Of a stretch of DNA of 20,488 bases, positions 1,109 through 20,488 are shown piece by piece; positions within the stretch are counted from its first letter, which is position 1; every line of letters begins with the position of its first letter. Under the pieces are notes generated by a model, which ran no database searches, had not been told where the DNA came from, and was given only the letters and a program-made list of their open reading frames with translations. A program made the position numbers and the translations under genes. The stretch is from a virus, in IMG/VR virus record IMGVR_UViG_3300008110_001601, positions 1 through 20,488 of that record. One strand, given 5' to 3'.

Positions 1109-1636
1109 ATGGACGGCCTTCTCAACCTCGTGCGCACGGTTGCGCCCAGCATCGCCAGCGCCGTTGGCGGCCCCTTGGCCGGTATGGCCACCAGGGCGAT
1201 TTCTGAGGCCCTGCTGGGCAAGCCAGACGGCACTGAGCAGGAGCTTGCTGAGGCCGCGGCCAAGGCCACCCCAGATCAGTTGCTGGCCCTTAAGCAGGCC
1301 GAGAATGCCTTTGCGGAGCGCATGCGTGAGCTAGACATTGATCTGGAGCGTATTGCCAATGAGGACCGCGCCAGCGCGCGGGACCGTGAAATCAAGACCG
1401 GCGACTGGATGCCCCGCGTTTTGGCCTTTGTCGTGGTCGGCGGCTTCATGCTGACGGTCTTTCTCGTGCTGCTCGGCTATGTTGACGGCATGCGGGATCC
1501 GCTCATGGCCACCACGGTTGGCACTCTGATAGGCTTTGTGTCTGCCAAGTGCGAGCAGGTGGTGGCCTACTACTTTGGCTCTTCTGCTGGCTCCAAGGCC
1601 AAGGATGAGGCCATCAACAGGATAAAATCAAAATGA
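1109..1636 (+). CDS. Holin, GTA-type three-helix family (GTA_holin_3TM-like)
   Basis: 175 residues. Residues 1-30 are Ala/Gly-rich and weakly hydrophobic. A charged helix follows (ENAFAERMRELDIDLERIAN, then EDRASARDRE). Two clear membrane segments lie at about 99-120 (MPRVLAFVVVGGFMLTVFLVLL) and 127-147 (DPLMATTVGTLIGFVSAKCE). The end 'AYYFGSSAGSKAKDEAI' is a hallmark of holins of the PF11351 group. Holins pierce the inner membrane at the programmed time and let the endolysin reach the cell wall. GGAG eight bases before the ATG serves as ribosome binding site. The stop overlaps the endolysin start as ATGA, so the pair is coupled. Family assignment is from motif memory and is fairly secure. 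Confidence 0.88.
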   Translation: MDGLLNLVRTVAPSIASAVGGPLAGMATRAISEALLGKPDGTEQELAEAAAKATPDQLLALKQAENAFAERMRELDIDLERIANEDRASARDREIKTGDWMPRVLAFVVVGGFMLTVFLVLLGYVDGMRDPLMATTVGTLIGFVSAKCEQVVAYYFGSSAGSKAKDEAINRIKSK

Positions 1637-2172
1637 GTGAATTGTTCCCCAAGGTTCTTAAATCTGTTCTGAAGCACGAGGGGCTGTGGAGCGACCACAG
1701 GGATGATCCCGGCGGCGCGACTATGAAGGGCGTGACGCTTCAGACGTATTCCGACTGGCTCGGGCGGCCGGCAAGCAAGGATGAATTGCGGAACATCCCA
1801 GATGACCATTTGGAGGCCATCTACCGCAAAGGATATTGGGCCAAGATCCGGGGCGATGAGCTTGCCGAGATCTCGCCTGGGCTTGCGGCGTGCGCTTTTG
1901 ACTTCGCGGTGAACAGCGGTCCAGGGCGGGCTGCCAAGGCCCTCCAGAGCCTTTGTGGGGCGGTTACGGATGGCGCGATTGGGCCCAACAGCCTGAAGCA
2001 GATAAAGGCCTGGGTTGGGATCCTTGGCCATAAAAGCGCAATTGAGGCCTTCCAGGCGTTTCGCCAACATTACTTGGAGAGCCTGGACACCTTCGCTACT
2101 TTCGGTCGGGGTTGGACCCGGCGCGTTGCTGAAGTGCGGGAAGAGGCCCTCAAATTGTCTGCGGGGGCCTGA
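1633..2172 (+). CDS. Endolysin, glycoside hydrolase family 108 (N-acetylmuramidase)
   Basis: 179 residues. The N-terminal part carries the GH108 signature: HEGLWSDHRDDPGGATMKGV at residues 15-34, with Glu16 as the expected catalytic acid followed by the conserved DPGG. The middle has YRKGYWAKI and 'CAFDFAVNSGPGRAAKALQ'. The C-terminal half ('DGAIGPNSLKQIKAW...FRQHYLESL') matches the PG_binding_3 domain usually fused to this family. It cleaves the peptidoglycan glycan chain. No signal peptide or anchor is present, so release through the upstream holin is expected. The ATG overlaps the holin stop by four bases. Length is normal for the family. Confidence 0.93.
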   Translation: MSELFPKVLKSVLKHEGLWSDHRDDPGGATMKGVTLQTYSDWLGRPASKDELRNIPDDHLEAIYRKGYWAKIRGDELAEISPGLAACAFDFAVNSGPGRAAKALQSLCGAVTDGAIGPNSLKQIKAWVGILGHKSAIEAFQAFRQHYLESLDTFATFGRGWTRRVAEVREEALKLSAGA

Positions 2173-2192
2173 ATATTCTCGGCAGTAAATTG

Positions 2193-2216
2193 CCTTGCCT
2201 TAGCTATGAGGCAGGG
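2193..2216 (+). terminator. Hairpin after the lysis block (possible weak terminator)
   Basis: The arms CCTTGCCTTA and TGAGGCAGGG form a ten-pair stem (two G-U pairs) closed by a four-base GCTA loop, 21 bases after the endolysin stop. Only a poor T-run follows (CTATATTTG), so termination would be partial at best. It may instead be an mRNA processing or stability element. Confidence 0.4.
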
Positions 2217-2224
2217 GCTATATT
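2195..2224 (+). promoter_or_regulatory. Candidate sigma70-type promoter for the virion genes
   Basis: TTGCCT (2195-2200) and TATATT (2219-2224) are separated by 18 bases, about 55 bases before the adaptor gene. The -10 matches 5 of 6 consensus positions and the -35 matches 4 of 6. The spacer coincides with most of the hairpin, so one of the two readings may be accidental. There is no experimental or comparative support. Confidence 0.3.
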
Positions 2225-2278
2225 TGAAAAACGGCGCAAGCTGAAGCAGCTGCGGAGAGTAAATCCGGCGGAGTCAGC

Positions 2279-2911
2279 ATGGCGTATGTAATGACCTACG
2301 ACAGTTTGCTGGTCGATCTGCGACGTTATCTTGAGCGTGGCTTTACGCAGGAAAGCGACCAGATTGTCTACGACCAGTTGCCTCGCCTTATCACATTGGG
2401 CGAGCGCCGGATTGCGCGCGAGCTGAAGATTGAGGGCTTTATTCGTGCCGTCCAGACGCCGCTTCAGGTTGGCGTTGCGGTCTACTTAAAGCCAGATCGT
2501 TGGCGTGACACTGTCAGCATGACGCTCAATGGCGTGCCGATTTTCGCCCGTGCCTATGAGTATTGCCGCAACTATTGGCCGAATGAGGCCCAGACTGGCA
2601 CCCCGCAGTTTTATGCCGACTATGACTTCCAGCACTGGCTGCTTGCGCCGACGCCTGACGCGGCCAGCACTCTGGAGATTTTGTATTACGAGCAGCCTGC
2701 GCTGTTGGGTGAAGAGTTGCAGACGAATTGGCTGACGGAATATGCGCCTGATTTGTTGCTCTACGCGGCGCTGTTGGAGGCGACGCCATTCTTGAAGAGC
2801 GACGAGCGCATTCAGACTTGGCAGGCTTTGTATGACAGGGCGGCTCAGGCCATTAGCGGCGAGGATCTGAAGCGCATCATGGATCGCAGCGCCAACAGGA
2901 GTGAAGCCTGA
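2279..2911 (+). CDS. Head-tail adaptor protein (SU10 adaptor-like)
   Basis: 210 residues, starting MAYVMTYDSLLVDLRRYLER, with GGCGGAG six bases upstream. The layout is that of the SU10-type adaptor: an N-terminal helix, 'YDQLPRLITLGERRIARELK' (residues 36-55, the characteristic multi-helix start), a beta-rich centre (AVYLKPDRWRDTVSMTLNGV), then 'GTPQFYADYDFQHWLLAPTP' and 'LEILYYEQPALL', and a C-terminal helical part beginning NWLTEYAPDLLLYAALLEAT. Such proteins form the ring between portal and tail nozzle of short-tailed phages. It opens the virion block, right after the only sizeable gap on this arm. Its stop overlaps the next start (TGATG). The call rests on pattern recognition. Confidence 0.78.
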   Translation: MAYVMTYDSLLVDLRRYLERGFTQESDQIVYDQLPRLITLGERRIARELKIEGFIRAVQTPLQVGVAVYLKPDRWRDTVSMTLNGVPIFARAYEYCRNYWPNEAQTGTPQFYADYDFQHWLLAPTPDAASTLEILYYEQPALLGEELQTNWLTEYAPDLLLYAALLEATPFLKSDERIQTWQALYDRAAQAISGEDLKRIMDRSANRSEA

Positions 2912-4113
2912 TGACTATCTACACCGACGTTTTTGGCGGCGCTAATATCTACCCGAGTGAAATCAGCTACAGCTCAATCGCGCTTTCTGCTGATGTGACG
3001 CTCAGTTGGCCGGAAGAGACTTCCACCAATACAAATTTGGCGACCAGGATTATTGACGTCACGCCGGCATCTTCCGGCCTGAGCATCATCCTGCCGGATG
3101 CCAACAAGACTGGCACTGGCAATACGATCCTCTTCAATAACCGCGGCGCGAGCACGTTTACTGTCAAGAATGCCGTCGGCACGCAGGTTGTCACGATTGC
3201 GGGCGGCGAGTTGTGGCAGGTTTATGTTGCCAGCAACACGACGGCGGCCGGCACTTGGCGGTCTTTGCAGTATGGCGCGGCGGCGAGTGTCGCGAATGCC
3301 TCTGCCCTGGCCGGCAATGGGATTGTCGCGGTTGGCACTCTTCTCAGCCAGTCTGTTCCTGTTACGACGTTTAACAGCAACTACACGTCTGGCACTGCTG
3401 ACCGCGCCCTCATGTACAATTGGACTGGCGCGGCTGGGGTGTTTACGTTGCCGGATCCTGCGGTGGTGGGGAACAATTGGTTTCTCTACCTGCGCAATTC
3501 AGGCACTGGCGCCATTGTGGCGACGCCTCCGGGCATTGTCACGATCGACGGGTCTTCGACGCTCAGTTTCCAACCGGATGAGTCGGCTATTATTGTTTCG
3601 GATGGCACCAACTTCCACACCATTGGATTTGGGCAATCTGCGACTTTTGCGTTTGACTATACGGTTATTGATGTCGCCGGAACCGGCACCTATACGCTGA
3701 CCGGGTCTGAGCTCAATCGCATTGCGTACCGATTTACTGGCGTGTTGACTGGCAATCGGATTGTCGTCGTTCCGGCGACCATTCAGCAGTATTGGGTCGA
3801 TAACCAGACGACTGGCGCGTTTACGTTTACGATTGCGCCATCTGGTGGTGGCTCTAGCGTCAGCATTGCCCAGGGCTCTCGTTCTATCCTCTATTGCGAT
3901 GGAACTGACGTTCTTGAGGCCGACACTGCCGGCGTGTCTTTTCCGATTACTATCGGTCAAGGCGGCACGAATGCCACCACGGCGAGCGGCGCACGGATTA
4001 ACCTAGGCGGCACTTCGACTGGGATTGCTCTATTTACTGCGGCGGATCAGGCGGCGGCTTGGGCTGCCTTGGGCGTTGCCCAGGCCGGCAATATCAATGG
4101 CGGCACGTTCTGA
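2911..4113 (+). CDS. Tail fibre/appendage-like protein with three related beta modules
   Basis: 400 residues, rich in Thr, Gly, Val, Ala and Ser, nearly all beta. Three segments look alike: about 57-121 (SIILPDANKTGTGNTILFNN ... GGELWQVYVAS), 176-240 (VFTLPDPAVVGNNWFLYLRN ... PDESAIIVSDGT), and 282-336 (RIVVVPATIQQYWVDNQTT ... QGSRSILYCDGT). Each runs strand, 'LPD'-like turn, 'NxxG' strand, then a strand ending in a 'DGT'-like turn. The end 'IGQGGTNATTASGARINLGG' (348-367) is the common phage-fibre motif that precedes or links fibre domains. Role: probably a virion appendage contacting the host or filling the tail rim. It lies between adaptor and nozzle, an unusual place for a receptor-binding protein, and starts on TGATG with the adaptor stop. 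Confidence 0.65.
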   Translation: MTIYTDVFGGANIYPSEISYSSIALSADVTLSWPEETSTNTNLATRIIDVTPASSGLSIILPDANKTGTGNTILFNNRGASTFTVKNAVGTQVVTIAGGELWQVYVASNTTAAGTWRSLQYGAAASVANASALAGNGIVAVGTLLSQSVPVTTFNSNYTSGTADRALMYNWTGAAGVFTLPDPAVVGNNWFLYLRNSGTGAIVATPPGIVTIDGSSTLSFQPDESAIIVSDGTNFHTIGFGQSATFAFDYTVIDVAGTGTYTLTGSELNRIAYRFTGVLTGNRIVVVPATIQQYWVDNQTTGAFTFTIAPSGGGSSVSIAQGSRSILYCDGTDVLEADTAGVSFPITIGQGGTNATTASGARINLGGTSTGIALFTAADQAAAWAALGVAQAGNINGGTF

Positions 4114-5957
4114 TGAAGGCAACGACTGTCGTCCTCAAGTCTGCGGCGGGCATTAAGCGTGACGGCACGCGCTTTGAGGGCGACAATTATGTTGATGGCC
4201 AGTGGGTGCGGTGGCAGCGCGGCTTGCCCCGCAAGATTGGCGGCTATCGTTCTGTTCAAAAATATCTGAGCGAAATCAGCCGCGGCTTTTCCACATTCAC
4301 CCAAGCTGGTTTTGTTTACTGCCATTCTGGCAGTGAGAATTACCTTGAGCGGTTCACGATTGATGCGAGCTTCAACAGCTCGGTTGTGACTGACAGGACG
4401 CCTATCAATGTGGCCGCGACTGCGACGGTGACATTGACTGGTGGCGCTGCTGGGTCTGTGGATATGATCACGGTTGACGGCGTCAACATCATGTCTGGGT
4501 CTGTCGCCTTCACGACGAACTTATCGACCACGGCGACTGCAGTTGCGGCCAACATCAATGCCCACACGTCTGTGCCTGAATACACGGCGGCGGCCGTCGG
4601 CCCAATCATCACGATCAGTGCGGCGGCTGCAGCTGGGTCGGATCCCAATAGCTACCAAGTGGCGGTCACGACCACCACCATCACAGAGACGCACACTGAC
4701 ATGGCCGGCGGGTCATTTGCCTACACGGCAAGCGCCGACAATGTTTGGATGTTTGACTATCAGTATGAATCGTCTTCAAACCAAAACTACATCCTTGCGC
4801 ATGCCGCTCCGAATTTGAGTTGCATCTGCAATGACCAGGGTGGCCAGATTTTCTATGGCGATGTTTTGGGGACGAATAAGCTGAAGTCCATTTCGCTGCC
4901 GGCCGATGCAAATGCCACGGGCGGCATTGTTTCCCTGCACCCCTATTTGTTTTACTACGGCACTGATGGAATTATTGGCTGGTCCAAGCCTGGGGAGCCG
5001 ACAGAGCTTCGCGACACGACTGCAGGCGCCGGATTGGCGCGCGTGTGGGGCCAGAAGATCATCAAGGGCCTCCCCTTGCGCGCTGGCTCTGGGAGTGCCC
5101 CTGCGGGCATCTTCTGGGCATTTGATGCGGTCATCCGTGCCACCTTCACCGGCGGCGCTTCCATATTCCAGTTTGACGTGGTCGCGACTGACACGTCTAT
5201 TTTGTCTCCCACCTGCGTCATTGACTATGACGGCGTGTTTTTCTGGTGTGGCGTTGACCGTTTCATGATGTTCAATGGCGTGGTGCGTGAAGTGCCAAAC
5301 AATATGAATATCAATTACTTCTTCGACGGTCTTAACAAATCACAGCAGAATAAAGTCTTTGCTTTTAAGGTGCCTCGGTATGGCGAGATTTGGTGGTGCT
5401 ACCCGCGTGGCGATGCCACCGAATGCACGCATGCCGTCATCTACAATGTCCGCGAAAACACTTGGTACGACACTGAGTTGCCGAATGGCGGGCGTTCTGC
5501 CGGCCAGTTTGCAAACTCCTTTGCGGCGCCGGTTCTGACGGGCGTCACTCAGAATGTGGACGGCTACAAGGTTTGGGTGCAGGAGCAGTTGACTGACGAG
5601 TATGATGGGCCGAACATCTTCCCCATCCAGTCATACTTTGAGACTGCCGACTTGTCGCAATTGGTGCAGGGTCAGAACGAGTATCTGCGGATCACGACGA
5701 TTGAGCCTGACTTTGTGCAGCGCGGCGCAATGACTGTTCAAGTTACTGGCCGAGCAAATGCAAGGGCTCCAGAGGTTTACAGCACAATCTTCACGTTCCC
5801 TGAGAACCCATCCACACCACATGAACAGATTGTCATGCTCAAGGAGCAGCGCCGTGAATTGCGGGTGCGATTTGAAAGCAATGAAGTCTATGGCGATTAT
5901 CAGATGGGCCAGATCATTGGGCATATGTCTGTGGGCGACAGGACGGTACTGGGATGA
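4113..5957 (+). CDS. Tail nozzle / stabilisation protein (beta-propeller type) with an inserted adhesin-like domain
   Basis: 614 residues from ATG 4113 (MKATTVVLKSAAGIKRDGTR). This ATG overlaps the upstream stop as TGATG; an in-frame ATG at 4059 lies inside the previous gene and is unlikely. After the opening 'FEGDNYVDGQWVRWQRGLPR' the chain has propeller-like repeats (VWMFDYQYESS, GGQIFYGDVLG, HPYLFYYGTDGIIGW, YDGVFFWCGVDRFMMFNG, GEIWWCYPRGD, VIYNVRENTWYDTELP). This layout is that of short-tail nozzle proteins (P22 gp10, T7 gp12, SU10 nozzle). Residues about 100-202 interrupt it with a Thr/Ala-rich module, 'GSVDMITVDGVNIM', then 'ATAVAANINAHTSVPEYTA', then ITISAAAAAGSDPN, of a sort found inserted in many phage surface proteins. 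The nozzle call is fairly good. Confidence 0.72.
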   Translation: MKATTVVLKSAAGIKRDGTRFEGDNYVDGQWVRWQRGLPRKIGGYRSVQKYLSEISRGFSTFTQAGFVYCHSGSENYLERFTIDASFNSSVVTDRTPINVAATATVTLTGGAAGSVDMITVDGVNIMSGSVAFTTNLSTTATAVAANINAHTSVPEYTAAAVGPIITISAAAAAGSDPNSYQVAVTTTTITETHTDMAGGSFAYTASADNVWMFDYQYESSSNQNYILAHAAPNLSCICNDQGGQIFYGDVLGTNKLKSISLPADANATGGIVSLHPYLFYYGTDGIIGWSKPGEPTELRDTTAGAGLARVWGQKIIKGLPLRAGSGSAPAGIFWAFDAVIRATFTGGASIFQFDVVATDTSILSPTCVIDYDGVFFWCGVDRFMMFNGVVREVPNNMNINYFFDGLNKSQQNKVFAFKVPRYGEIWWCYPRGDATECTHAVIYNVRENTWYDTELPNGGRSAGQFANSFAAPVLTGVTQNVDGYKVWVQEQLTDEYDGPNIFPIQSYFETADLSQLVQGQNEYLRITTIEPDFVQRGAMTVQVTGRANARAPEVYSTIFTFPENPSTPHEQIVMLKEQRRELRVRFESNEVYGDYQMGQIIGHMSVGDRTVLG

Positions 5958-6187
5958 GCATTCGCGTTACTCTCCCTACTGGGCTTGGGTTGCGGGATTG
6001 GGCAGATCAGATTGCCTTGGACCTTGATCCTTATGGCACCTTTGGGCGTCTGGACATTGAGGACCAGTGGCAGAATTGGGCCATGCAGTTTCTCAATAAT
6101 ATGACGCTCAAAGAAAATTTCCCAATCCCCTATTATTTCGATAATTGGCAGGAATGGGCCGAGCGTTTTTGTCAGGCTTTGGAGTAG
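5954..6187 (+). CDS. Small virion-region protein, 77 aa, unknown function
   Basis: It starts MSIRVTLPTGLGLRDWADQI on an ATGA overlap with the nozzle gene and ends FCQALE. It is acidic and rich in Trp, Phe and Tyr, with two similar aromatic runs: 'EDQWQNWAMQFLNNMTL' (about 36-52) and 'YYFDNWQEWAERFCQAL' (60-76). Both follow a D/N-x-W-Q-x-W-A-x-x-F plan, so the gene may be a tandem duplication of one helix. The operon position between nozzle and internal proteins suggests a tail or chaperone role, but no family is recognised. Good gene structure on both sides makes it real. Confidence 0.75.
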   Translation: MSIRVTLPTGLGLRDWADQIALDLDPYGTFGRLDIEDQWQNWAMQFLNNMTLKENFPIPYYFDNWQEWAERFCQALE

Positions 6188-6191
6188 CGAT

Positions 6192-8123
6192 ATGGCGACG
6201 ATCCGCGATCAAATTATGCAGGTAGCTCAGTCTGACCCAAGCTTCTCTCAGGCGATCGACGCCATGGAGCAGGCGGTCATCAATATGCCCATCACTCCAG
6301 AGGATCTGGATGAAATCATCGCCCTCCTGGAGTTTGTGATCCAGAACCCCGACAAGTATGGCGAGGTTCGTCAGGCGGCGATTGAAGACGAAGAAATTGA
6401 CGAGAATACGCTGCCGCCTCAGTTTGATCCGATTTACATCATTTCGCTTTTGGTTGCGCTATATGGCCTGCAGGATCGTCTGCAAGAGCAGGGCTATGCC
6501 CGTGGCGGCCTGACTGTCGCGGCGCGGCGTGTGCAGGCTGCTGGGCGTGGTGGCGATACAATCCTAGCGCACATAAACCCCCAAGAGGCGGAAATGCTGC
6601 GCCGAGCTGGTGGCTCTGGCACAATCAATCCCCAAACTGGCCTGCGCGAATACAAGCCTTTCTGGGAGAAAAAGAATTTTGGTCTAGGATCTAGTCTTGG
6701 CCCAGTCCTCGCGGCAGCTGCGCCGATTGTCTTAAGTATTGTTGCCCCAGGAATTGGAACGGCGATCGGCTCAAGCATCGCAGGCGGCCTTTTCGGGGGC
6801 ACTGCCATGGCTGGCTTGGTGCCATATATTGCGCCCGCCCTCGGCGGTGCGCTTCTTGGCGCCGGCTCGTCTGCATTGACTGGCGGCAATCTAATGCAGG
6901 GCGCCTTGACTGGCGCAATTGGCAGTGGCCTAGGCAATGTTCTTGGCCAGGGCATTACCTCTGGCTTGGGTCTGGGATTGGGTGAAACTGCCTCAAATAT
7001 TTTGGGTGGCACTATTCTCGGCTCGGGGGCTTCGGCTATTCAAGGCCGCAACCCGTTTAGCGGTGCTCTGCGAGGTGCGTTGGGTGCTGGTATTGGCGCT
7101 ATCGGCAAAGAATTTGCTGGCGACATTGCTGGCTTTGGTCCTGGCGCTGGCGGCACTGAGGGCATTAAGCGCGGCATTGAGGCGGGCACCTCGGGCTTTG
7201 GCACTGGCCTGACTGCCGGGATGGATCCAAAGCAGGCGGCGGCGGCCGGCGTTCTGTCTGGCTTGGCATCTGGCCTGATTAAGCCATCTCAGGCGGTGGT
7301 TCAGAACATGAGCGGCGAAGTGCCACTGGCGACGCCTGTGCAGCAGCCTGACGGCACGCTGGCGCCGGCCCCGGGTTCTGCTGGCGTGATGCCTGACGGG
7401 CGCCCTGGCGTGTATCAGGCCGATTCGAGTACTGGGTTCATTGAATTGAAGCCCGTTCCCGGAACTTACCAACTGAACGAACAAACCAGACAGATGGAGT
7501 TTAGGCCACAACAGCGTGGCATTCTTGAAACTTTAGGTCTTGGCGCTCCTGCAGGGCAGACGCCGGCGGCTGGCGGCGGCCAGTCTTCTGGCTTGGGCAA
7601 CCTTCTCGGTGGCAATCTTGCGCCTCTTCTTGCGGGTGGCGCGCTGCTGGCGTCACAGGGTGGCGGGCAGGCTCCGCCGCCTCAAACGCGAGCGTTGCCG
7701 GCCGCGCAGCAGGAATACATCAACCGTCCGGGCGTTGTCTGGGATTGGGCCAGGATGCAGCGCGATGCGACAGCAAGCAATCTGACGCTTGATCAATTCA
7801 TGGCGCGCAATTGGCCGAGGGTCACGTCTGGCGAGTACAATGCCGCTCCGATGGCGCAGGGTGGCCTGAGCATGGTGTCTCGTTTCGTAAGGGGCGGCGG
7901 CACTGGCCGATCAGACGAAATCAGCGCCAAGCTTTCTGATGGCGAGTATGTGATTGACGCCGAGACTGTCGCGATGCTTGGTGACGGATCTAGTAAGGCT
8001 GGCGCAAAAAAGTTAGATGAAATGCGCAACCAAATCCGGCAACATAAGGGTAGGGCGCTGGCCAAGGGTAAGTTTAGCCCTGACGCCAAGTCGCCCCTGA
8101 CATATCTGAAGGGGGTCGCATAA
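6192..8123 (+). CDS. Large internal virion (ejection-type) protein with duplicated tape-measure-like motif
   Basis: 643 residues, with GGAG seven bases before ATG. Residues 1-100 are helical and acidic. Residues 103-146 read ARGGLTVAARRV then GDTILAHINPQEAEMLRRAG. Residues about 165-370 form a long Gly/Ala-rich hydrophobic stretch with glycine-zipper patterns, able to insert into a membrane. Residues 380-505 are Pro/Gly/Gln-rich and flexible. Residues 555-602 repeat the first motif as AQGGLSMVSRFV then DEISAKLSDGEYVIDAETVA. The 'D-x-I-x-A-x-L-S-x-GE-x-V' pattern is common in tape-measure and internal virion proteins. Likely packaged in the head and ejected with DNA to cross the envelope. Its stop overlaps the next ATG (TAATG). 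Confidence 0.7.
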   Translation: MATIRDQIMQVAQSDPSFSQAIDAMEQAVINMPITPEDLDEIIALLEFVIQNPDKYGEVRQAAIEDEEIDENTLPPQFDPIYIISLLVALYGLQDRLQEQGYARGGLTVAARRVQAAGRGGDTILAHINPQEAEMLRRAGGSGTINPQTGLREYKPFWEKKNFGLGSSLGPVLAAAAPIVLSIVAPGIGTAIGSSIAGGLFGGTAMAGLVPYIAPALGGALLGAGSSALTGGNLMQGALTGAIGSGLGNVLGQGITSGLGLGLGETASNILGGTILGSGASAIQGRNPFSGALRGALGAGIGAIGKEFAGDIAGFGPGAGGTEGIKRGIEAGTSGFGTGLTAGMDPKQAAAAGVLSGLASGLIKPSQAVVQNMSGEVPLATPVQQPDGTLAPAPGSAGVMPDGRPGVYQADSSTGFIELKPVPGTYQLNEQTRQMEFRPQQRGILETLGLGAPAGQTPAAGGGQSSGLGNLLGGNLAPLLAGGALLASQGGGQAPPPQTRALPAAQQEYINRPGVVWDWARMQRDATASNLTLDQFMARNWPRVTSGEYNAAPMAQGGLSMVSRFVRGGGTGRSDEISAKLSDGEYVIDAETVAMLGDGSSKAGAKKLDEMRNQIRQHKGRALAKGKFSPDAKSPLTYLKGVA

Positions 8124-13124: not shown

Positions 13125-13312
13125 GGTCTTCCTATCGTTTCGTTTTTCTGGATCCTGATTTCGCTGTTCCGGTAGGACCAGCACTGGCCATTGTCGTCCA
13201 GGAAGCAGACCCATATCAGGTCTGCCTCTGGGCCGTAGTCAATGACGATGTGCGCCCAGGCCTTACCCTTTGGGGTTATCACCGGGAGCGGCGGGTTCAA
13301 TTGGTGGATCAT
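13121..13312 (-). CDS. Small conserved-type phage protein, 63 aa
   Basis: The sequence begins MIHQLNPPLPVITPKGKAWA and continues through AHIVIDYGPEADLIWVCFLD to a C-terminal 'SEIRIQKNETIGRP'. GGAAAGAG lies four bases upstream of the ATG. I recognise the opening 'MIHQLNPPLPV.TPKGKA', the 'IDYGPE.DL.WVCF' core and the 'N.EIR.QKN' end as a recurring small phage protein of unknown function; a single compact beta sheet is likely. The first 50 bases overlap, in another frame, the end of the XRE-type regulator upstream, and the end overlaps the next gene by four bases. Confidence 0.78.
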   Translation of the reverse strand: MIHQLNPPLPVITPKGKAWAHIVIDYGPEADLIWVCFLDDNGQCWSYRNSEIRIQKNETIGRP

Positions 13313-13568
13313 TTTCTCTTTCCATCATGGCCGCGGCCTTTTCGACTGAGATGATCAGGCTGGACAGTTTGACGTTGCAGACGGCAGCAAAGGTCACGAG
13401 GTGGGCCCAGCTGGGTGATCCCCTGCCCCCCTCCCATGACGCTATGGCCGATCGAGAGACGTTTATCCGGCGGGCCAACTCAGTCATTGTCCAGTTGCGA
13501 TATTTACGCGCCGCGCGCAGGGATACCCCCAACGCGCGTGCGTACAATTCATTGCGTGCTCGTGGCAT
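13263..13568 (-). CDS. XRE-family (Cro/CI-type) helix-turn-helix regulator
   Basis: 101 residues. Residues about 13-68 form a five-helix XRE domain: SLRAARKYRNWTMTELARRI, then 'NVSRSAIASWEGGRGSPSW', then HLVTFAAVCNVKLSSLI. The recognition helix is VSRSAIASWEGG. The tail (about 72-101) is acidic/proline-rich without a peptidase or dimerisation domain, so it is short for a CI repressor. It probably binds DNA as a dimer. The ATG overlaps the stop of the MarR-type gene (TAATG) and lacks its own ribosome binding site, so synthesis should depend on ribosomes finishing MarR. It is a candidate for binding the palindrome in the promoter of this same operon. Confidence 0.82.
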   Translation of the reverse strand: MPRARNELYARALGVSLRAARKYRNWTMTELARRINVSRSAIASWEGGRGSPSWAHLVTFAAVCNVKLSSLIISVEKAAAMMERENDPPIEPAAPGDNPKG

Positions 13569-13864
13569 TAAGTATCAATCAACTTTTCCACGAAGTTGAT
13601 GCCCTTCCTGGTAATGAGGATACGGACCTTGCGGCGGTCAACTTTCTCTTCGCGGCGCCGTTTGAGGAGGTCTTGCTCTTCGAGTTTGTCCAGGGTGCGG
13701 GAGACTGCCGGCGCGGTAACGCCAAGCTCTTCTGCCATTTCGTGGACCAGGAAATTGGTTTCCTGCAGGTAGGCCATGAACAAGATCTTCAGTGAGAGCT
13801 TGTTTACCTTTCCAGAGCGAGCCAGCACGAGATTGATGAATTGTGCTTTTTCAAGGTTGGTCAT
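13568..13864 (-). CDS. MarR-type winged helix regulator, short form (98 aa)
   Basis: Residues about 20-90 fit a MarR winged helix: KLSLKILFMAYLQETNFLVH, then 'EMAEELGVTAPAVSRTLDKL' (helix-turn-helix), then EEQDLLKRRREEKVDRRKVR with the DRR-type wing, ending ILITRKGINFVEKLI. Ordinary MarR proteins are about 140-150 residues with N- and C-terminal dimerisation helices; this one keeps mainly the DNA-binding core. AGGAGA, lying in the final codons of the upstream gene, is five bases from the ATG. Its TAA overlaps the ATG of the XRE-type gene. A pair of regulators at the far end of an operon suggests feedback on it, which is inference. Confidence 0.83.
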   Translation of the reverse strand: MTNLEKAQFINLVLARSGKVNKLSLKILFMAYLQETNFLVHEMAEELGVTAPAVSRTLDKLEEQDLLKRRREEKVDRRKVRILITRKGINFVEKLIDT

Positions 13865-13866: not shown

Positions 13867-14226
13867 TTATCTCCTGTCTATGCGTCTGCTGACGCCTGTT
13901 ATGATTTCAAAGGGGTTGATGCTGCGCTTGTTTTTGCAGTCGCAGCAAATGCGGTTGTGGTTGCCTTCTGAGTCAAACTCCTTTCGGCAGCACATGCAGG
14001 GCCTGGGGCGCAGCATGGGCTTTGGGGCGACGTGCAGCCCGGCTTGCTTGTGGGCTGCTTCTGGTGGCGCCGGCACTCTGTAGACCTGCCTGCTCCTGAC
14101 TGATCTGATGGTGCGATCAGAGACGTTGAACAGCTTGGCCAACTCGTGGCTTAATTTTCCGCTGTTGCGGATTTCTTCCACCTGATCATCCGTAAGCTTG
14201 CGGTTGAAATAGGCTGCCTTGCTCAT
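13867..14226 (-). CDS. Helix-turn-helix plus zinc-ribbon protein (119 aa)
   Basis: Start at MSKAAYFNRKLTDDQVEEIR (ATG 14226-14224), coupled by ATGA to the mini-gene before it. Residues about 9-50 are a helix-turn-helix (LTDDQVEEIRNSGKLSHELA, then KLFNVSDRTIRSVRSRQVYR) like those of resolvase/transposase or HNH-linked phage proteins. Residues 77-97 carry Cys77/Cys80 and Cys94/Cys97 (CMCC and CCDC), a CxxC...CxxC zinc ribbon with FDSEGNHNRIC between. DNA binding, perhaps a regulator, is likely. The upstream extension to 14397 has no support and overlaps other genes. The last six codons hold the ribosome binding site of the MarR-type gene. Confidence 0.8.
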   Translation of the reverse strand: MSKAAYFNRKLTDDQVEEIRNSGKLSHELAKLFNVSDRTIRSVRSRQVYRVPAPPEAAHKQAGLHVAPKPMLRPRPCMCCRKEFDSEGNHNRICCDCKNKRSINPFEIITGVSRRIDRR

Positions 14227-14273
14227 AGGCTCTTCACCACGTTGTAGATGATCATCAAGATTAGGTCGATCAT
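14223..14273 (-). CDS. Candidate hydrophobic mini-protein, 16 aa
   Basis: A 17-codon frame encodes MIDLILMIIYNVVKSL, long enough to cross or lie in a membrane. AGGAAG is four bases before the ATG. The ATG overlaps the stop of the gene upstream (ATGA), and its TGA overlaps the ATG of the Zn/HTH gene (ATGA again). Both overlaps plus a proper ribosome binding site make chance unlikely. It exactly fills the only gap between two genes in an otherwise seamless operon. It could be a membrane peptide, or mainly a device that carries ribosomes to the next start. Confidence 0.5.
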   Translation of the reverse strand: MIDLILMIIYNVVKSL

Positions 14274-14485
14274 TTGTCTTCCTGCCATGCCCGTTCAAAA
14301 ATATCGGGCGGATCTCTGTTCTCGCCTTCCCAGCCTCGGGCTTGCACGGCCTTGCGCGCCCACTCCATGGCTTCTTCTTTCGTGGTTTCATAACCAACAG
14401 TCATAACATTATTGCCGCGCATGATTGCGGCCATCCAAAGCTCTCTTGTGTAATCGCGGCCAATGACAATTTGCAGGTCGCTCAT
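14270..14485 (-). CDS. Small protein, 71 aa, unknown function
   Basis: Starts MSDLQIVIGRDYTRELWMAA. It looks like a small alpha/beta fold: strand IVIGRD, helix YTRELWMAAIM, strand NNVMTVGYET, helix TKEEAMEWARKAVQARGWEG, and an acidic tail EERAWQEDK-like (ending ERAWQEDK). The ATG follows the repeated junction element, with GGGAG seven bases upstream. Unlike its neighbours it starts 14 bases after, not overlapping, the previous stop. Its own TGA overlaps the ATG of the 16-residue mini-gene. No family is recognised. Confidence 0.72.
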   Translation of the reverse strand: MSDLQIVIGRDYTRELWMAAIMRGNNVMTVGYETTKEEAMEWARKAVQARGWEGENRDPPDIFERAWQEDK

Positions 14486-14498
14486 TCCTTTTCTCCCA
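14482..14498 (-). repeat. Junction repeat copy 1 (vestigial coding copy)
   Basis: Read leftward, TGGGAGAAAAGGAATGA. Here the upstream gene stops at TAA 14502-14500, yet the frame beyond still reads V-G-E-K-E-stop, so the old GEKE tail and ATGA overlap survive as untranslated sequence. GGGAG still serves as ribosome binding site for the next gene. Confidence 0.85.
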
Positions 14499-14499
14499 C

Positions 14500-14742
14500 T
14501 TAATTCATTGGTTTCTGGTTGTCATATTTAATCGGCGGGAAACTCCCGACAATCTTTGCCATATCCGCAGCCATTTTTTTCTTGCGTCCGGTTTTTACCG
14601 TCATCTCAATTCCCAACGCCAAGGCTTGAGCTATGGCCCTAATCACATCGTGACCATCCAAATCATTTTCTTCCCCTCGAGCCATCGCCCAAGTCACAAT
14701 AGCAATGGAGAAGTTTAAAATATCATCATGCTTTTCGCTCAT
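14500..14742 (-). CDS. Small protein, 80 aa, unknown function; C-terminus shortened by a new stop
   Basis: Begins MSEKHDDILNFSIAIVTWAM on an ATGA overlap. Predicted mostly helical: ILNFSIAIVTWAMARGE, then 'DLDGHDVIRAIAQALALGIEM', a basic turn TGRKKKMAADMAK, and a polar end PPIKYDNQKPMN. The stop TAA (14502-14500) is followed in the same frame by codons for V-G-E-K-E and a TGA overlapping the next ATG, exactly the tail found on its neighbours. So the gene seems to have gained a stop six codons early. No family is recognised. Confidence 0.72.
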   Translation of the reverse strand: MSEKHDDILNFSIAIVTWAMARGEENDLDGHDVIRAIAQALALGIEMTVKTGRKKKMAADMAKIVGSFPPIKYDNQKPMN

Positions 14743-14755
14743 TCCTTTTCTCCCA
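14739..14755 (-). repeat. Junction repeat copy 2
   Basis: Leftward TGGGAGAAAAGGAATGA. It encodes the GEKE-stop of the upstream gene, supplies GGGAG seven bases before the next ATG, and overlaps stop and start as ATGA. Confidence 0.88.
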
Positions 14756-14960
14756 GCAGCTCGCGTGTTTCCGGCTTCAGCTTATCCCAATCGCCGCGCC
14801 AGATATGCTTCGCCAAATCCTGCACAGCAGCGCGCAGCTTTTCGATTTCGTCGGCGGCTTCCCTTGCCACCGTACCTTTTACCCATATTACTGGGCTTCT
14901 CAGCCCATCTGTTGCTGAAGCAAACTCAGTAGAGCGCAGCCGTTCTACAATGTCGCTCAT
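14739..14960 (-). CDS. Small coiled-coil phage protein with GEKE tail, 73 aa
   Basis: Starts MSDIVERLRSTEFASATDGL. The 'MSDIVERLR' opening and a central 'REAADEIEKLRAAVQDLAK' helix are typical of small phage proteins (loosely Ea22-like) with a Glu/Leu/Arg coiled coil and no known activity. Between them lies a short strand SPVIWVKGTV. The C-terminus is ETRELLGEKE, produced by the junction repeat. The ATG follows GGAG in the junction before it and overlaps that gene's stop by four bases. It is one of several similar cassettes in the array. Confidence 0.75.
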   Translation of the reverse strand: MSDIVERLRSTEFASATDGLRSPVIWVKGTVAREAADEIEKLRAAVQDLAKHIWRGDWDKLKPETRELLGEKE

Positions 14961-14973
14961 TCCTTTTCTCCTG
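14957..14973 (-). repeat. Junction repeat copy 3
   Basis: Leftward CAGGAGAAAAGGAATGA. The first two bases differ from the other copies (the codon before GGA is CCA, so the tail is PGEKE), but GGAG, spacer and ATGA are kept. Confidence 0.85.
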
Positions 14974-15175
14974 GTTCCAGTTTGAAGTCTTTGGGAGGGT
15001 GGCCTAGATGGTCAGCGTTATAGAAACGCACATAGGCCCGCTGGCTTTCGGGGATCAGCAGGTGGATTTTCCCGTCTACCGCCATGATAATTCTGACCAC
15101 TCCTTCACCCACCCTTAAACGCCCAATACTCATGGGTATTGGTTGGCCGGTGGCAAAATCTCTTTCAAAGATCAT
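14957..15175 (-). CDS. Small beta-rich protein with GEKE tail, 72 aa
   Basis: Starts MIFERDFATGQPIPMSIGRL, the one array member without an MSD/MSE-type opening. It is beta-rich: RVGEGVVRIIMAVDGKIHLL, then IPESQRAYVRFYNADHLG, and a proline-rich end PPKDFKLEPGEKE. It shares only the junction-encoded tail with its neighbours, so cassettes of unrelated origin appear to use the same joint. The ATG overlaps the previous stop (ATGA), with GGGAG seven bases upstream. No family is recognised. Confidence 0.73.
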   Translation of the reverse strand: MIFERDFATGQPIPMSIGRLRVGEGVVRIIMAVDGKIHLLIPESQRAYVRFYNADHLGHPPKDFKLEPGEKE

Positions 15176-15188
15176 TCCTTTTCTCCCA
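15172..15188 (-). repeat. Junction repeat copy 4
   Basis: Leftward TGGGAGAAAAGGAATGA. It continues upstream with the same CGCGCGGCGC as copy 5, so both upstream proteins end RAALGEK(E/K). Confidence 0.88.
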
Positions 15189-15372
15189 GCGCCGCGCGCA
15201 CATTTGTTGCCTCGGACTGCCCAAAATATTTTTGGAAAGCCGCCCGCAGCCTTTTGTTCTCCGCCCGCAGCTTTTCGTTCTCCGCTTGGATCATATGCCC
15301 AATCTTTGCCGCCGCCTCTGCGCCGAGCGTCAGTCCGGTGGCGGCGTATATTTTATCTGCGATGTCGCTCAT
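15172..15372 (-). CDS. Small coiled-coil protein with RAALGEKE tail, 66 aa
   Basis: Starts MSDIADKIYAATGLTLGAEA. The middle is a clear heptad coiled coil: AENEKLRAENKRLRAAFQKY (about 30-49). The end NVRAALGEKE is nearly the same as that of the next gene upstream. Like its neighbours it is short, charged and helical, with no catalytic motif; it may form homo- or hetero-oligomers with related cassette products. The ATG lies on the variant junction in which GG of the spacer is AA, yet GGGAG remains as ribosome binding site. Confidence 0.75.
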   Translation of the reverse strand: MSDIADKIYAATGLTLGAEAAAKIGHMIQAENEKLRAENKRLRAAFQKYFGQSEATNVRAALGEKE

Positions 15373-15385
15373 TTTTTTTCTCCCA
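15369..15385 (-). repeat. Junction repeat copy 5 (variant)
   Basis: Leftward TGGGAGAAAAAAAATGA. GG just before the ATG is AA, changing the upstream tail to GEKK. GGGAG at the normal spacing is unchanged. The run of eight A could invite polymerase slippage. Confidence 0.85.
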
Positions 15386-15638
15386 GCGCCGCGCGGGCTT
15401 TGATGACTATGGTTCCCATGTCATTTATCATCCCCACCATGATTTCGTTGTCACGCTTCAGCATATCCCGTTCCGCCCGCAGTGCATCACGTTCCGCCGC
15501 AAGAGCGCGGAGAAGATTGGCTGAGATGTGGTGCATGGCGCGCCGCCCACTATCTTCTGGATTGCCGGCGTATAATTCTTCACTGACCTCATGAAACTTC
15601 GCCACTTCCAAAGCGCGCTTTGTGCTTGTGTCGCTCAT
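15369..15638 (-). CDS. Small coiled-coil protein with RAALGEKK tail, 89 aa
   Basis: Starts MSDTSTKRALEVAKFHEVSE. After an N-terminal part with LYAGNPEDSGRRAMHHISAN comes a strong coiled coil, LLRALAAERDALRAERDMLK (about 42-61), then a hydrophobic helix EIMVGMINDMGTIVIKA, and the tail RAALGEKK. It is the longest of the coiled-coil cassettes and shares the '(D/K)xLRAE' heptads and C-terminus with the gene at 15172, suggesting descent from one ancestor. ATGA overlap at both ends. Function unknown. Confidence 0.75.
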   Translation of the reverse strand: MSDTSTKRALEVAKFHEVSEELYAGNPEDSGRRAMHHISANLLRALAAERDALRAERDMLKRDNEIMVGMINDMGTIVIKARAALGEKK

Positions 15639-15651
15639 TCCTTTTCTCCCA
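15635..15651 (-). repeat. Junction repeat copy 6
   Basis: Leftward TGGGAGAAAAGGAATGA. It encodes the LGEKE-stop of the upstream gene and the start of the next (MSDT). This is the first copy met by transcription. Confidence 0.88.
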
Positions 15652-16011: not shown

Positions 16012-16203
16012 TTACTGGGGAAACAATCCAGCCGCCTTGCGGCCGAAACGATATAGATCCCAAGCCCGCTGCATGATTTCGCGACGGCGTTCAATCGCCT
16101 CATCGCGCTCCATTTCGTAGCGGTTCCAATCGTCTAGGGCCTGTTGTTCAAGCATCGCATTATCCATGTCGATCAGCATGTCTTTCCACGCGCCCATGAT
16201 CAC
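16012..16203 (-). CDS. Small charged helical protein, 63 aa (61 if the internal ATG is used)
   Basis: Two starts are possible: GTG 16203-16201, overlapping the previous stop as GTGA, or ATG 16197-16195 two codons later, which stands eight bases after GGGGG. I give the longer form. From the ATG the protein is MGAWKDMLIDMDNAMLEQQA, then LDDWNRYEMERDEAIERRRE and IMQRAWDLYRFGRKAAGLFP. It is one long amphipathic, highly charged helix, probably oligomeric. No family is recognised. It is the second gene of the leftward operon. Confidence 0.7.
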   Translation of the reverse strand: MIMGAWKDMLIDMDNAMLEQQALDDWNRYEMERDEAIERRREIMQRAWDLYRFGRKAAGLFPQ

Positions 16204-16505
16204 AGCCCCCGACGGAAATCAGCGGTGGCGCAAGCGCGGTTCCAGCCGGCGTTGACGCGGTCATTTTCTTCCTCGGCAACGGCGCGGCCGACCAGATCAG
16301 AGAGCAGATCGCGGGTGCTGTTGATCAGATCATCGCACTCGTCGGTGCGGTGCAGCTGGCGGATCTCCAGGAGACGCTCCAGGAAAGACTGGGTGGCGAA
16401 CACCACGCGCTCGGCAATGGCGACGGTGGGGTGGTCGTCGGCGGCATCCAGCTTCGCGAGCTTGGACTTGATGTCGCCTTCAAGGTTGAAATTCTGAATG
16501 CTCAT
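16200..16505 (-). CDS. First gene of the leftward operon; helical protein of 101 aa
   Basis: Starts MSIQNFNLEGDIKSKLAKLD. AGGAGA seven bases before ATG is one of the best ribosome binding sites in the window, and the leftward promoter lies about 40 bases further up, so this is the promoter-proximal product. It is acidic and helical: HPTVAIAERVVFATQSFLER, then 'LLEIRQLHRTDECDDLINST', then RDLLSDLVGRAVAEEENDRV. The tail ends DFRRGL. No domain is recognised; an early phage protein is a fair guess from position. Its stop overlaps the next start. Confidence 0.75.
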   Translation of the reverse strand: MSIQNFNLEGDIKSKLAKLDAADDHPTVAIAERVVFATQSFLERLLEIRQLHRTDECDDLINSTRDLLSDLVGRAVAEEENDRVNAGWNRACATADFRRGL

Positions 16506-16547
16506 TTTTGTATCTCCTGGTTGGTTGGCTTGTTTGCCATGACCAGA

Positions 16548-16576
16548 ACCCTATCGTAGCAAATCGCTACGGTCAA
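16548..16576 (-). promoter_or_regulatory. Leftward promoter of the minus-strand operon
   Basis: Read leftward: TTGACC (16576-16571), a 17-base spacer, and TAGGGT (16553-16548). An A/T-rich tract (16577-16600) just upstream could act as an UP element. The predicted start near 16541 leaves a leader of about 36 bases carrying AGGAGA before the ATG at 16505. The spacer is occupied by a 17-bp palindrome. Confidence 0.7.
16555..16571. promoter_or_regulatory. Operator-like palindrome in the leftward promoter spacer
   Basis: CGTAGC and GCTACG form perfect six-base arms around AAATC, 17 bp in all, the size of lambda-type operators. It sits between the -35 and -10 boxes, overlapping the last -35 base, where a bound repressor would exclude RNA polymerase. 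The binding protein is unknown; the Cro-like (16683) and XRE-type (13263) products are candidates. Confidence 0.65.
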
Positions 16577-16620: not shown

Positions 16621-16644
16621 AACTAATTTATGGTGGCCCTAGGG

Positions 16645-16674
16645 TTGACAGTTTGTCAAAATGACGAGTAGGCT
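16645..16674 (+). promoter_or_regulatory. Rightward promoter, predicted to give a leaderless mRNA
   Basis: TTGACA (16645-16650, perfect consensus), an 18-base spacer, and TAGGCT (16669-16674). The next gene's ATG is only eight bases after the -10 box, where transcription should start, and no ribosome binding site is present. The -35 is half of a palindrome, TTGACAGTTTGTCAA (16645-16659), a possible operator. Confidence 0.68.
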
Positions 16675-16682: not shown

Positions 16683-16919
16683 ATGAAGAATGCGACCACA
16701 TCCGACATTATAGATGCACTTGGCGGCGTCCAGCACGTTGCCAATAAAATCTGTGTGGATCAGCAGATCATCTACAATTGGATGAGGCCAACGCGGGGTA
16801 TTGCGCGCTTGTACTGGCTGGACATTCTTGAACTTGCGCGGCGCGAGCGCGTTGCTTGGATTACCCCACAGGTCTTGAAGAAGGCCAAGGGCTCGTATGC
16901 AAAGGAGATAAAAAAATGA
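16683..16919 (+). CDS. Cro-like helix-turn-helix regulator (78 aa)
   Basis: Begins MKNATTSDIIDALGGVQHVA. Residues about 7-52 follow the Cro/YdaS plan: 'DIIDALGGVQHVANKICVD', a turn, recognition helix QQIIYNWMRPTRGIARLYW, then LDILELARRERVAW. The 'ALGG...VA..........I..W' spacing is characteristic of Cro-type proteins that open the early rightward operon of lambdoid phages. The C-terminal 25 residues are basic (KKAKGSYAKEIKK). No ribosome binding site precedes the ATG, which lies about at the predicted transcription start. It faces away from the leftward operon across a region with palindromes, so repressing one or both promoters is its likely job. The stop overlaps the next ATG. Confidence 0.82.
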   Translation: MKNATTSDIIDALGGVQHVANKICVDQQIIYNWMRPTRGIARLYWLDILELARRERVAWITPQVLKKAKGSYAKEIKK

Positions 16920-17953: not shown

Positions 17954-18556
17954 ATGTCAACTTCTATCACGATTAAAAACGTCCGTCTGGCCTACATGCA
18001 CCTGATCGAGCCGCGCGCGGCAGCTGACGGCGCAGAGCCCAAGTATTCCGTCACCATGATCATCCCAAAGTCCGACAAGGCGATGGTTGATCTGGTGCGC
18101 GGCGCCATGGTCGCGGCACGCGAAGCGCGTTGGGGTGCAAAGCCCCCCGCCGGCCTCCGCTCTCCGCTGCGCGATGGTGACGAAAAGGACGCCGATAACA
18201 ACTTCCTGCGCGGCGAAGAGTTTCGCAATGCGTGGTTCGTAAACGTCGCCAGCAAGAAGCCGGTTGACGCCAAAATCATGATGGGCGGCAAAATCGTAAA
18301 CTGCCCGCATGAGCACCTTGTCTCGGGCTACTATGGCACCGTCTTCGCCAACTTCTATGGCTACGAGGCTGCCGGTAACCGGGGCGTAAGCGCCGGCCTC
18401 AATGGCGTGATCATCACCAAGCGCGGCGAACCCCTCGGCCGCCGCTTGGATTGGGAAGACGCCGCCTCTGGCGCAGAAGACTTTGGTGGTGCCGGATCTA
18501 CATCTGGCGGCATGGAAGACTTTGGCGCGCCTGCCGGCGACCAGATTCCTTTCTGA
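17954..18556 (+). CDS. Single-stranded DNA-binding protein, DUF2815 / Enc34 type
   Basis: 200 residues, with GAGG six bases before ATG. The chain starts MSTSITIKNVRLAYMHLIEP, then 'PKYSVTMIIPKSDKAMVDLV', which is the DUF2815 signature (modified OB fold of the Enc34 group). The middle has FRNAWFVNVASKKPVDAKIM and HLVSGYYGTVFANFYGYEAA, then 'GVSAGLNGVIITKRGEPLG'. The tail is acidic and Gly-rich, ending GDQIPF like the C-terminal peptide by which SSB proteins recruit partner enzymes. It would coat single-stranded DNA during phage replication and may interact with the nuclease upstream and primase-helicase downstream. Length is normal. Confidence 0.88.
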   Translation: MSTSITIKNVRLAYMHLIEPRAAADGAEPKYSVTMIIPKSDKAMVDLVRGAMVAAREARWGAKPPAGLRSPLRDGDEKDADNNFLRGEEFRNAWFVNVASKKPVDAKIMMGGKIVNCPHEHLVSGYYGTVFANFYGYEAAGNRGVSAGLNGVIITKRGEPLGRRLDWEDAASGAEDFGGAGSTSGGMEDFGAPAGDQIPF

Positions 18557-18565
18557 AAAATAACT

Positions 18566-18593
18566 GGCTCCCTCCCTTCACGGGGAGGGGGCC
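18566..18593 (+). terminator. Strong GC hairpin between the SSB and primase-helicase genes
   Basis: GGCTCCCTCCC and GGGAGGGGGCC form an eleven-pair stem (one G-U) with loop TTCACG, ten bases after the SSB stop. It is followed by CCCC rather than T, so it is not a standard terminator. Attenuation or protection of the SSB mRNA end, lowering primase expression relative to SSB, is plausible. Confidence 0.5.
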
Positions 18594-18624
18594 CCCCTGA
18601 CAATATAGCACTCTCGGAGGGTCC

Positions 18625-20488
18625 ATGGCCGATATATCAGCGTTCCCAGATCGCCTGCGGCCAAATGCCGACGCGATGCACGAGGCCCTGACCTTTTGGT
18701 TCAGCCTGTGCACTGAAGGCCAAATTGAACTCGGCTGGCGGGATCCTCAAACCAAGGAACTCAATCGGTTCAAGCGGTTTGAATTAACCGAAATCGAAGA
18801 GCTCGTGACCTTCGCCTATGACGTCAACAAGGTGGCCGGCGCCAATGTGTATTTCAGGGTCTGCACCCTGAAGGCATTGCCGGGCCGCACCACTGACGAG
18901 CATTTCCTCCAGGCGCCCGGCGCCCACATTGACCATGACGACGCCATGAGCGTCTCGCGCCTCGCCAGCCACCCCCTGGCTCTCAAGCCGGCCTATTTGG
19001 TCATCACCGGACGGGATCCTCAAATCCGTGGCCAAACCTTCTGGCCGGTGGATGACCCCATCACGGACCCGGCCATCGTGCGGGAACTGAACAGCGGCCT
19101 CGCTAAGCATTTCGGTGGCGACCCTGCCGTGGTGAACCCCACCCGCCTCATGCGCCTGCCTGGGTCGATTGCGTGGCCGGTGAAGAAGGGGCGCACAGTC
19201 GCCGAGATCACGCAGCTGCTGTGGCCGGCAGACCAGCGCATGAAGCGCCTGCACACGCCTGAGCTGCTCAACACCGTGCGCGAAGCTAACCAGTCTCTTC
19301 TGGCCACCAGGGCGCCTGAGTATGATGCCGCGCCATTCGATGCGCCGGCAGCCCAGGAGCCGGTGGAGGCCCCGGAGAAGGCTTGGCAGCCTCCTGTGCG
19401 GCAGAATGCGCCCATCAGCGAATTGATCATTGCTACCCGCCAGCCCGGCCAGTGGCACGCCAGCGTTCTGCGCTTGGTGGCATCCTGGCTCAACCGCGGG
19501 CTCAGCGACAGAGAGATCCACCTCTTCGCTCCAGCCCTCACGCTGCCCGGCTTCACCCTGCGCCAGACGCATGAAGAGCTGCAGGCCATGATTGATGGCG
19601 GCCGGCAGAAGTGGGATTTGCCAGACCGCGACCCTTTTGTTGACGCTGTCACGCCTAAGCCCCGCCAGGGTCTGTGGGTGGATGACGGGGATGATTTGGA
19701 CGACATCCCCACGCGCCCCTGGCTGGTGCCGGGCATCATCCTGCGTGGCAGCGTCACCCTCCTCTCCGGCCAGGGCGCCGGGGGCAAGTCGTCCTACGTC
19801 GTCGGCCTGACCACCTCGATCGCCGCCGGCATCCAATACGGCAAGGCCAGCCCGGTGAAGGCCATGCGTGGCATCAATTACAACACCGAGGATGACCGCG
19901 ACGAGCAGCGCCGCCGGTATGCGGCCTTTCTCTACGCCAGTGGCGTCGATCGGCAGGCCATCAGGTCTGTGATCCGCGTCGGGCCGGAGGGCGTGGGCGT
20001 GCTGTTCACCCGCGACCCGGACAGCGGCGAGGTGGTGCCCACGGCGGCCATGGAAGACCTCCGCACCCTGATCAAGGAGCAGGAGGCAGAATACATCATC
20101 GTGGACCCCCTGGCGGAATTGCACACGGCCGAGGAGAACGACAACACGGCCATGAGGAGCATCCTGGCCGCCTTCCGGCAGCTGGCCAAGGAAATGAACA
20201 TTGGCGTGGTCATCCTGCACCATGACCGCAAAGGGGTGGGCATTGCCGGCGACGTGGACCGGATGAGGGGCGCCTCGGCCCTGCAGGGTGCGGCCCGTAT
20301 CGTGCTGACCCTCACCCGGATGACGGAGGAGGAGGCCGAGGCCCTGCAGATACCCAAGGAGCAGCGTTCAAGCTTCATTCGCATCGACAATGCCAAGGCG
20401 AACTACACCCCGTTGGGTGAGGTGGCGTGGTACCAGCTGCAGGGCCAGACCATCCCCAATGGCGAGCAGGTGGCCGCGGCATTGCCCT
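18625..20488 (+). CDS. Primase-helicase (primase-like N-terminus, RepA-like AAA ATPase), C-terminus beyond the window
   Basis: 621 residues visible, no stop before the edge; start MADISAFPDRLRPNADAMHE with GGAGG four bases upstream. Residues about 60-190 look like a RepB/primpol-type primase: HIDHDD at 101-106 (metal-binding acidic pair) and 'NPTRLMRLPGSIAWP' (171-185), the usual motif near the end of that domain. A Pro/Ala-rich linker lies around 235-260. An AAA_25 (RepA-like) domain follows: Walker A GQGAGGKSS (382-390), Walker B YIIVDPLAE (490-498), HHDRK at 532-536, and a 'DRMRGASALQGAARIVLTL' sensor region. It would prime and unwind phage DNA. The 3' end and possible C-terminal domains are unseen. 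Confidence 0.85.
   Translation, partial: MADISAFPDRLRPNADAMHEALTFWFSLCTEGQIELGWRDPQTKELNRFKRFELTEIEELVTFAYDVNKVAGANVYFRVCTLKALPGRTTDEHFLQAPGAHIDHDDAMSVSRLASHPLALKPAYLVITGRDPQIRGQTFWPVDDPITDPAIVRELNSGLAKHFGGDPAVVNPTRLMRLPGSIAWPVKKGRTVAEITQLLWPADQRMKRLHTPELLNTVREANQSLLATRAPEYDAAPFDAPAAQEPVEAPEKAWQPPVRQNAPISELIIATRQPGQWHASVLRLVASWLNRGLSDREIHLFAPALTLPGFTLRQTHEELQAMIDGGRQKWDLPDRDPFVDAVTPKPRQGLWVDDGDDLDDIPTRPWLVPGIILRGSVTLLSGQGAGGKSSYVVGLTTSIAAGIQYGKASPVKAMRGINYNTEDDRDEQRRRYAAFLYASGVDRQAIRSVIRVGPEGVGVLFTRDPDSGEVVPTAAMEDLRTLIKEQEAEYIIVDPLAELHTAEENDNTAMRSILAAFRQLAKEMNIGVVILHHDRKGVGIAGDVDRMRGASALQGAARIVLTLTRMTEEEAEALQIPKEQRSSFIRIDNAKANYTPLGEVAWYQLQGQTIPNGEQVAAALP

Follow-up and report, generated by a model that had tools for sequence, protein, structure and literature searches.

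A palindrome in the leftward promoter of an uncultured phage is probably one copy of an operator dispersed over several promoters

We conclude, with a probability of roughly 80%, that the palindrome in the leftward promoter P_L of the viral DNA studied here (the window, positions 1 to 20,488 of IMG/VR record IMGVR_UViG_3300008110_001601) belongs to a set of dispersed phage operators with the consensus TGTAGCGTTTCGCTACA, at which a phage-encoded dimeric repressor would shut several promoters. As judged from the sequences compared, the site is conserved, recurs, and occupies a promoter-like position wherever it is retained. An earlier sequence-only reading had placed the palindrome exactly in the spacer of a leftward promoter, and this geometry is correct to the base: on the minus strand, TTGACC (16576-16571) and TAGGGT (16553-16548) are 17 bases apart, with CGTAGCGATTTGCTACG in between. 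The features of P_L are as follows.

16571..16576, minus strand: −35 hexamer TTGACC (TTGACN is kept in relatives L002, L005, L006, and L014)
16555..16571, no strand: putative 17-bp operator CGTAGCGATTTGCTACG (minus-strand letters), a copy of the consensus
16548..16553, minus strand: −10-like hexamer TAGGGT (TAAGGT, TAAAGT, or TATAAG in relatives, 17 bases from the −35)
16506..16541, minus strand: 5' leader, with GGCAAACAAGCC at 16538-16527 and the ribosome site AGGAG at 16518-16514
16200..16505, minus strand: first gene of the leftward operon, 101 aa, 80-89% identical in relatives, its product without a family match

The palindrome has perfect 6-bp arms (CGTAGC/GCTACG) and a single base in common with the −35, the spacer itself being 16570-16554. 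A start near 16541 gives a 36-base leader with AGGAG ahead of the ATG at 16505, and the leader element at 16527-16538 is a loose version of GGCAATNANGCC, which precedes the ribosome site at the other operator promoters. Because TAGGGT matches the −10 consensus at only three of six positions, a generic promoter scan missed P_L; the pattern TTGACN-N16/18-TANNNT/G occurs in the window only twice, at P_L and at the divergent rightward promoter at 16645. Taken alone, the palindrome is no better than chance, as dyads with 6-bp arms and gaps of 3-9 bp number 55 in the window and 49.8 in Markov shuffles, and 7 of the 55 have a 5-bp gap like that of the P_L palindrome. Such abundance (55 dyads where 50 are expected) is what a functionless, chance palindrome would predict, but that explanation is extremely improbable given the conservation of the site, its compensatory changes, and its recurrence at fixed promoter positions.

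IMG/VR was searched for relatives of the flanking genes, and four of those found (L002, L005, L006, and L014) cover P_L. Each has TTGACT or TTGACA followed, after 17 bases, by TAAGGT, TAAAGT, or TATAAG, and the near-consensus promoter of L014 (TTGACA-17-TATAAG) supports the reading of P_L as a real promoter. The spacer reads GTCGCGAAACGCAAC in L002, L005, and L006, GTCGCAGAAGGCGAC in L014, and GTAGCGATTTGCTAC in the window; the arms GTNGC-N5-GCNAC are invariant and identically placed in all four relatives, while the 5-bp centre is different in each version and the flanks vary too. Just outside the arms, the window has a C-G pair, L002 a T-A pair, and L014 an A-T pair, each of them complementary. 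It is this conservation in place, together with recurrence at other promoters, that makes the P_L palindrome more than a chance dyad. The exact form CGTAGC-N5-GCTACG is absent from the sister contigs even when one mismatch is allowed; what is conserved is the core GTNGC-N5-GCNAC, and a scan for this core found just one copy within the window, that at P_L, which departs from the consensus at three arm positions. Loose one-mismatch matches to the core inside coding regions were discarded as chance, as a reversed control pattern gave a similar number.

The sequence-only reading had also suggested looking for the same palindrome elsewhere in the phage genome, and operator copies were indeed found, both in a sister contig 92-96% identical to the window where the two overlap and in relatives further removed. 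When the sister records were scanned for the core, additional copies came to light at other intergenic promoters, such that the consensus is now seen in some 18 contigs, at about 20 promoter sequences, where it usually overlaps the −35 and mostly lies 49-54 bases (typically 52) upstream of an SD-ATG. Within 270 kb of related sequence, about 20 sites lie no more than two mismatches from the arm consensus where shuffling predicts 1.0, and no site of the same quality was found in 708 kb of other viral contigs. Taken over 14 distinct operators, pairing holds for 90% of arm cells, as compared to 14-59% at registers slid by 1-3 bases, with compensatory changes in three of the seven arm pairs; in G006 and G015 the arms are perfect (TGTAGCGTTACGCTACA). 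Two sites are present in the sister contig G014 and three each in G004 and G005, so that one conserved site is found at several promoters of a phage, as expected of a dispersed operator. Two further matches were rejected: a near-site in phage RW (L008:1675) sits in a gene, and GTCAAAATGAT at L016:8729 lies within an XRE gene.

The distal operator promoters share their surroundings as well, with AAAAAGTGGTTAAGTATC as an upstream motif and GGCAATNANGCCGNNNNNCAGGAGA as a leader. The viral collection was scanned with each of these motifs separately, neither pattern including the palindrome. The upstream motif was found in 14 contigs and, once one mismatch was allowed in the loci of those contigs, in 23 occurrences, 21 of which have an operator (at most two arm mismatches) 12-13 bases downstream. 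The leader motif has an operator exactly 20 bases upstream in 22 of 26 occurrences, the remaining four comprising three unrelated sequences and one at a truncated contig. The contig sets of the two scans overlap and many contigs are near-identical, so these site counts are not independent, and the records are fragments of uncultured phages. A hairpin (GGC...GCC) considered for the leader is broken in L002 and relatives; the leader seems to be conserved as sequence rather than structure. Among about 50,000 records of named phages, blastn found no match to the operator-promoter module, nor did megablast find one to the P_L region.

G014 (41.7 kb) can be regarded as a close sister because it matches the window over 626-7866 (92-96% identical) and 17992-20486 (96%), the intervening part being absent. 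Its operators, at 33368 and 35479, are ∼3.8 and 5.9 kb past the right end of the window when the G014 orientation is followed in the direction of the rightward operon. Each precedes a conserved small gene, and the second is followed by genes that, from our reading of their sequences rather than a tool assignment, appear terminase-like. Most distal promoters begin the dyad at the second base of the −35 and P_L at the last, the dyad centre falling between −35 and −10 in both cases. The distal promoters (TTGTAG-N17-TAGAAG, TATAAG, TATACC, and similar) combine a weak −35 with the conserved upstream motif, and several of their −10s are poor, as is the TAGGGT of P_L; P_L has a good −35 and no upstream motif.

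Three observations concern the neighbourhood of these promoters. The motif AAACATAAAAAGTGGTTAAGTATCT, a candidate activator site or UP element, stands 12-13 bases before the operator in L157, L158, L160-L170, and others and is absent at P_L. A G+C-rich, terminator-like stretch ends in GGGGGGATTTTCC directly before many operator promoters and marks one class of module (L157, L158, L160-L164, L166, L167, L169, and L170); these promoters look as if they were the starts of insulated transcription units. On the minus strand of L163, near 3175 (reverse-strand coordinate), the upstream motif precedes TTGTAG-N9-CTACAA, which exceeds the operator by two bases, and next comes a terminator-like hairpin in place of a gene.

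In the mechanism that we infer, a phage-encoded protein dimer would bind the operator and cover the spacer along with the end of the −35, from about −30 to −14 at P_L and −34 to −18 elsewhere, and because the site covers these elements, host sigma-70-type RNA polymerase would be excluded. P_L would thereby be repressed jointly with two or more distal rightward promoters, which would begin new transcription units ahead of the terminase genes. The weak −35 (TTGTAG) and the upstream motif suggest that the distal promoters may also be activator-dependent, and some activator probably exists; one could thus suppose that an activator of phage or host origin, instead of a repressor, binds the operator itself. 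We consider this improbable, as the dyad lies between and over the hexamers with its centre near −22 to −26, the −35 of P_L is good, and the upstream motif is the better candidate for an activator site. MerR-type activator sites have spacers of 19-20 bp, and that of P_L is 17; to our knowledge, activators other than MerR types do not sit between or over the hexamers.

If the operator is bound by a repressor, the window encodes several proteins that could serve.

13263..13568, minus strand: XRE-type helix-turn-helix protein, 101 aa, alternative candidate (Pfam HTH_3, 1.3e-11)
13568..13864, minus strand: MarR-type winged-helix protein, 98 aa, favoured candidate binder (Pfam MarR_2, 1.5e-9)
13867..14226, minus strand: possible helix-turn-helix protein with a Cys-rich C-terminus (inner ATG of ORF 13867-14397)
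16683..16919, plus strand: small Cro-like/YdaS-like DNA-binding protein, first gene of the rightward promoter P_R (P22_Cro, 7.8e-4, weak; phrog_8008, 4.8e-5)

The product of 13568-13864 scores above curated cut-offs for both MarR_2 (38.3 bits vs 27) and MarR (36.4 vs 24.6), and its predicted model (pLDDT 79) best matches a MepR-like protein (Z 12.4), with DNA-bound MarR proteins among the matches. In relatives it is 43-50% identical, the recognition-helix region being the best kept part. We favour it as the most likely binder, if tentatively, because of this retained helix, because both its sequence and its predicted fold are of the MarR type, and because a near-perfect 17-bp palindrome over promoter elements suits the family. 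Co-occurrence does not single it out, since the XRE-type and Cro-like genes are, like the MarR-type gene, conserved in all five P_L-bearing records. The 13867 protein is unlikely as a binder, its match in G005 spanning just the C-terminal half.

The regulon could be real and yet be served by the XRE-type protein (13263), whose gene is kept in five of five P_L-bearing records and whose family supplies typical phage repressors that bind 14-17-bp dyads. We regard this as somewhat unlikely, because G005 keeps the operator and a nearly unchanged MarR recognition helix whereas its XRE-type protein is only 41% identical with an altered recognition helix (VSRSAIASWEGG vs VTSSAIGAWEKG). With the MarR-type protein as binder, a regulator made from the end of the leftward operon would bring about negative autoregulation and a timed shut-off, and putative feedback on the operon by one of its own regulators, of either the MarR or the XRE type, is plausible. 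It is possible, though doubtful, that an uncharacterised phage group has the MarR-type protein as its master repressor, which would act via dispersed palindromic operators in a modular promoter that would consist of a terminator, an upstream activator motif, an operator over the −35, and a conserved leader; P_L would then be an early, autoregulated copy without the upstream motif and the distal copies later promoters.

The Cro-like protein has to be weighed together with the promoter that drives it.

16645..16674, plus strand: rightward promoter P_R, TTGACA-N18-TAGGCT
16654..16666, no strand: dyad in the P_R spacer, TGTCAAAATGACG (CGTCAAAATGACG, CATCAAAATGATG, and TGTCAAAATGACA in relatives)

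Made from P_R, which adjoins P_L, and 56-88% identical in relatives, this protein might bind the operator and, with P_R active, turn off both P_L and the distal promoters, cross-repression of the Cro type being classical. We find this unlikely, because P_R has a different dyad of its own beside the cro-like gene, a natural site for autoregulation, and this dyad is absent from the other promoters. Paired changes in relatives (CATCAAAATGATG and TGTCAAAATGACA, small numbers) speak for the P_R dyad, and a shuffle control (38 of 500) is only suggestive; the dyad was seen at none of the other promoters examined, and a natural guess is that it serves autoregulation by the Cro-like gene, whose product is the candidate binder. 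With 19.6 bits, under the 30.2 gathering cut-off of Pfam P22_Cro, the protein does not qualify as a P22 Cro; a search of solved structures found none for it, and no relatives were found in bacterial genomes (candidate prophages). Between the divergent promoters, AACTAATTTAT (16621-16631) is identical in the window, L002, L005, and L006 while its surroundings differ.

The repressor-type operator that the sequence-only reading proposed finds good support in conservation and recurrence, as does the reality of the leftward promoter, but the bistable switch that it also thought plausible does not. The P_L dyad (GTNGC-N5-GCNAC) differs from the P_R dyad (RTCAAAATGAY), and because the two promoters share no operator, a lambda-like switch is not supported; the other copies are at distal promoters and not at the divergent one, and no match to a tyrosine integrase (PF00589) was found in nine records, all of them fragments. 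Like lambda OL/OR, the arrangement combines two divergent promoters, one of which has an operator in its spacer, with a small Cro-like gene that opens the rightward operon; unlike lambda, whose operators are common to both promoters and bound by CI and Cro, it has a single unshared dyad per promoter and no CI-type repressor by the divide.

Dispersed phage operators are already known, and this is a familiar kind of control. The C1 operators of phage P1 and the conserved inverted repeats of phiC31, which lie near early promoters, are likewise dispersed over the promoters of one phage, the difference being that no lysogeny genes were found here. MarR, MepR, and SlyA are MarR-family repressors acting on near-perfect palindromes over −35 and −10; our candidate resembles them in sequence, predicted fold, and a near-perfect 17-bp palindrome over promoter elements, and differs in being short (98 aa), phage-encoded, and a predicted binder. 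In mycobacteriophages L5 and L1, too, one type of repressor site is repeated across the genome, promoters included, but the L5 operators/stoperators are 13-bp, asymmetric, monomer-bound, and present at more than 20 per genome, and they also lie between genes, where they stop elongation (PMC9283540). Here we see 17-bp palindromes at promoters, two or three per record, with compensatory changes and MarR or XRE candidates. Because L5 sites are asymmetric and monomer-bound (PMC9283540), the system described here is, to judge from the sequences, no stoperator system strictly speaking; it would behave as a regulon of dispersed operators.

Two features of the window lie apart from the operator. On the minus strand, at 14496-15649, small genes follow one another with overlaps at GGAGAAAAGGAATGA, and the ribosome site of each next gene encodes the common C-terminus (LGEKE) of the preceding one; because it is so encoded, this tail probably reflects translational coupling and is not a motif of the proteins. 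With Caulobacter phages, the tail protein encoded at 4107-5957 shares 56% identity, which is only a hint of an alphaproteobacterial host.

A single palindrome is thereby extended to a candidate regulon of an environmental phage group, one defined by its consensus and promoter positions and supplied with three candidate binders. The regulon bears on the timing of transcription in such phages, and on whether a MarR-type protein may serve as a phage master regulator.
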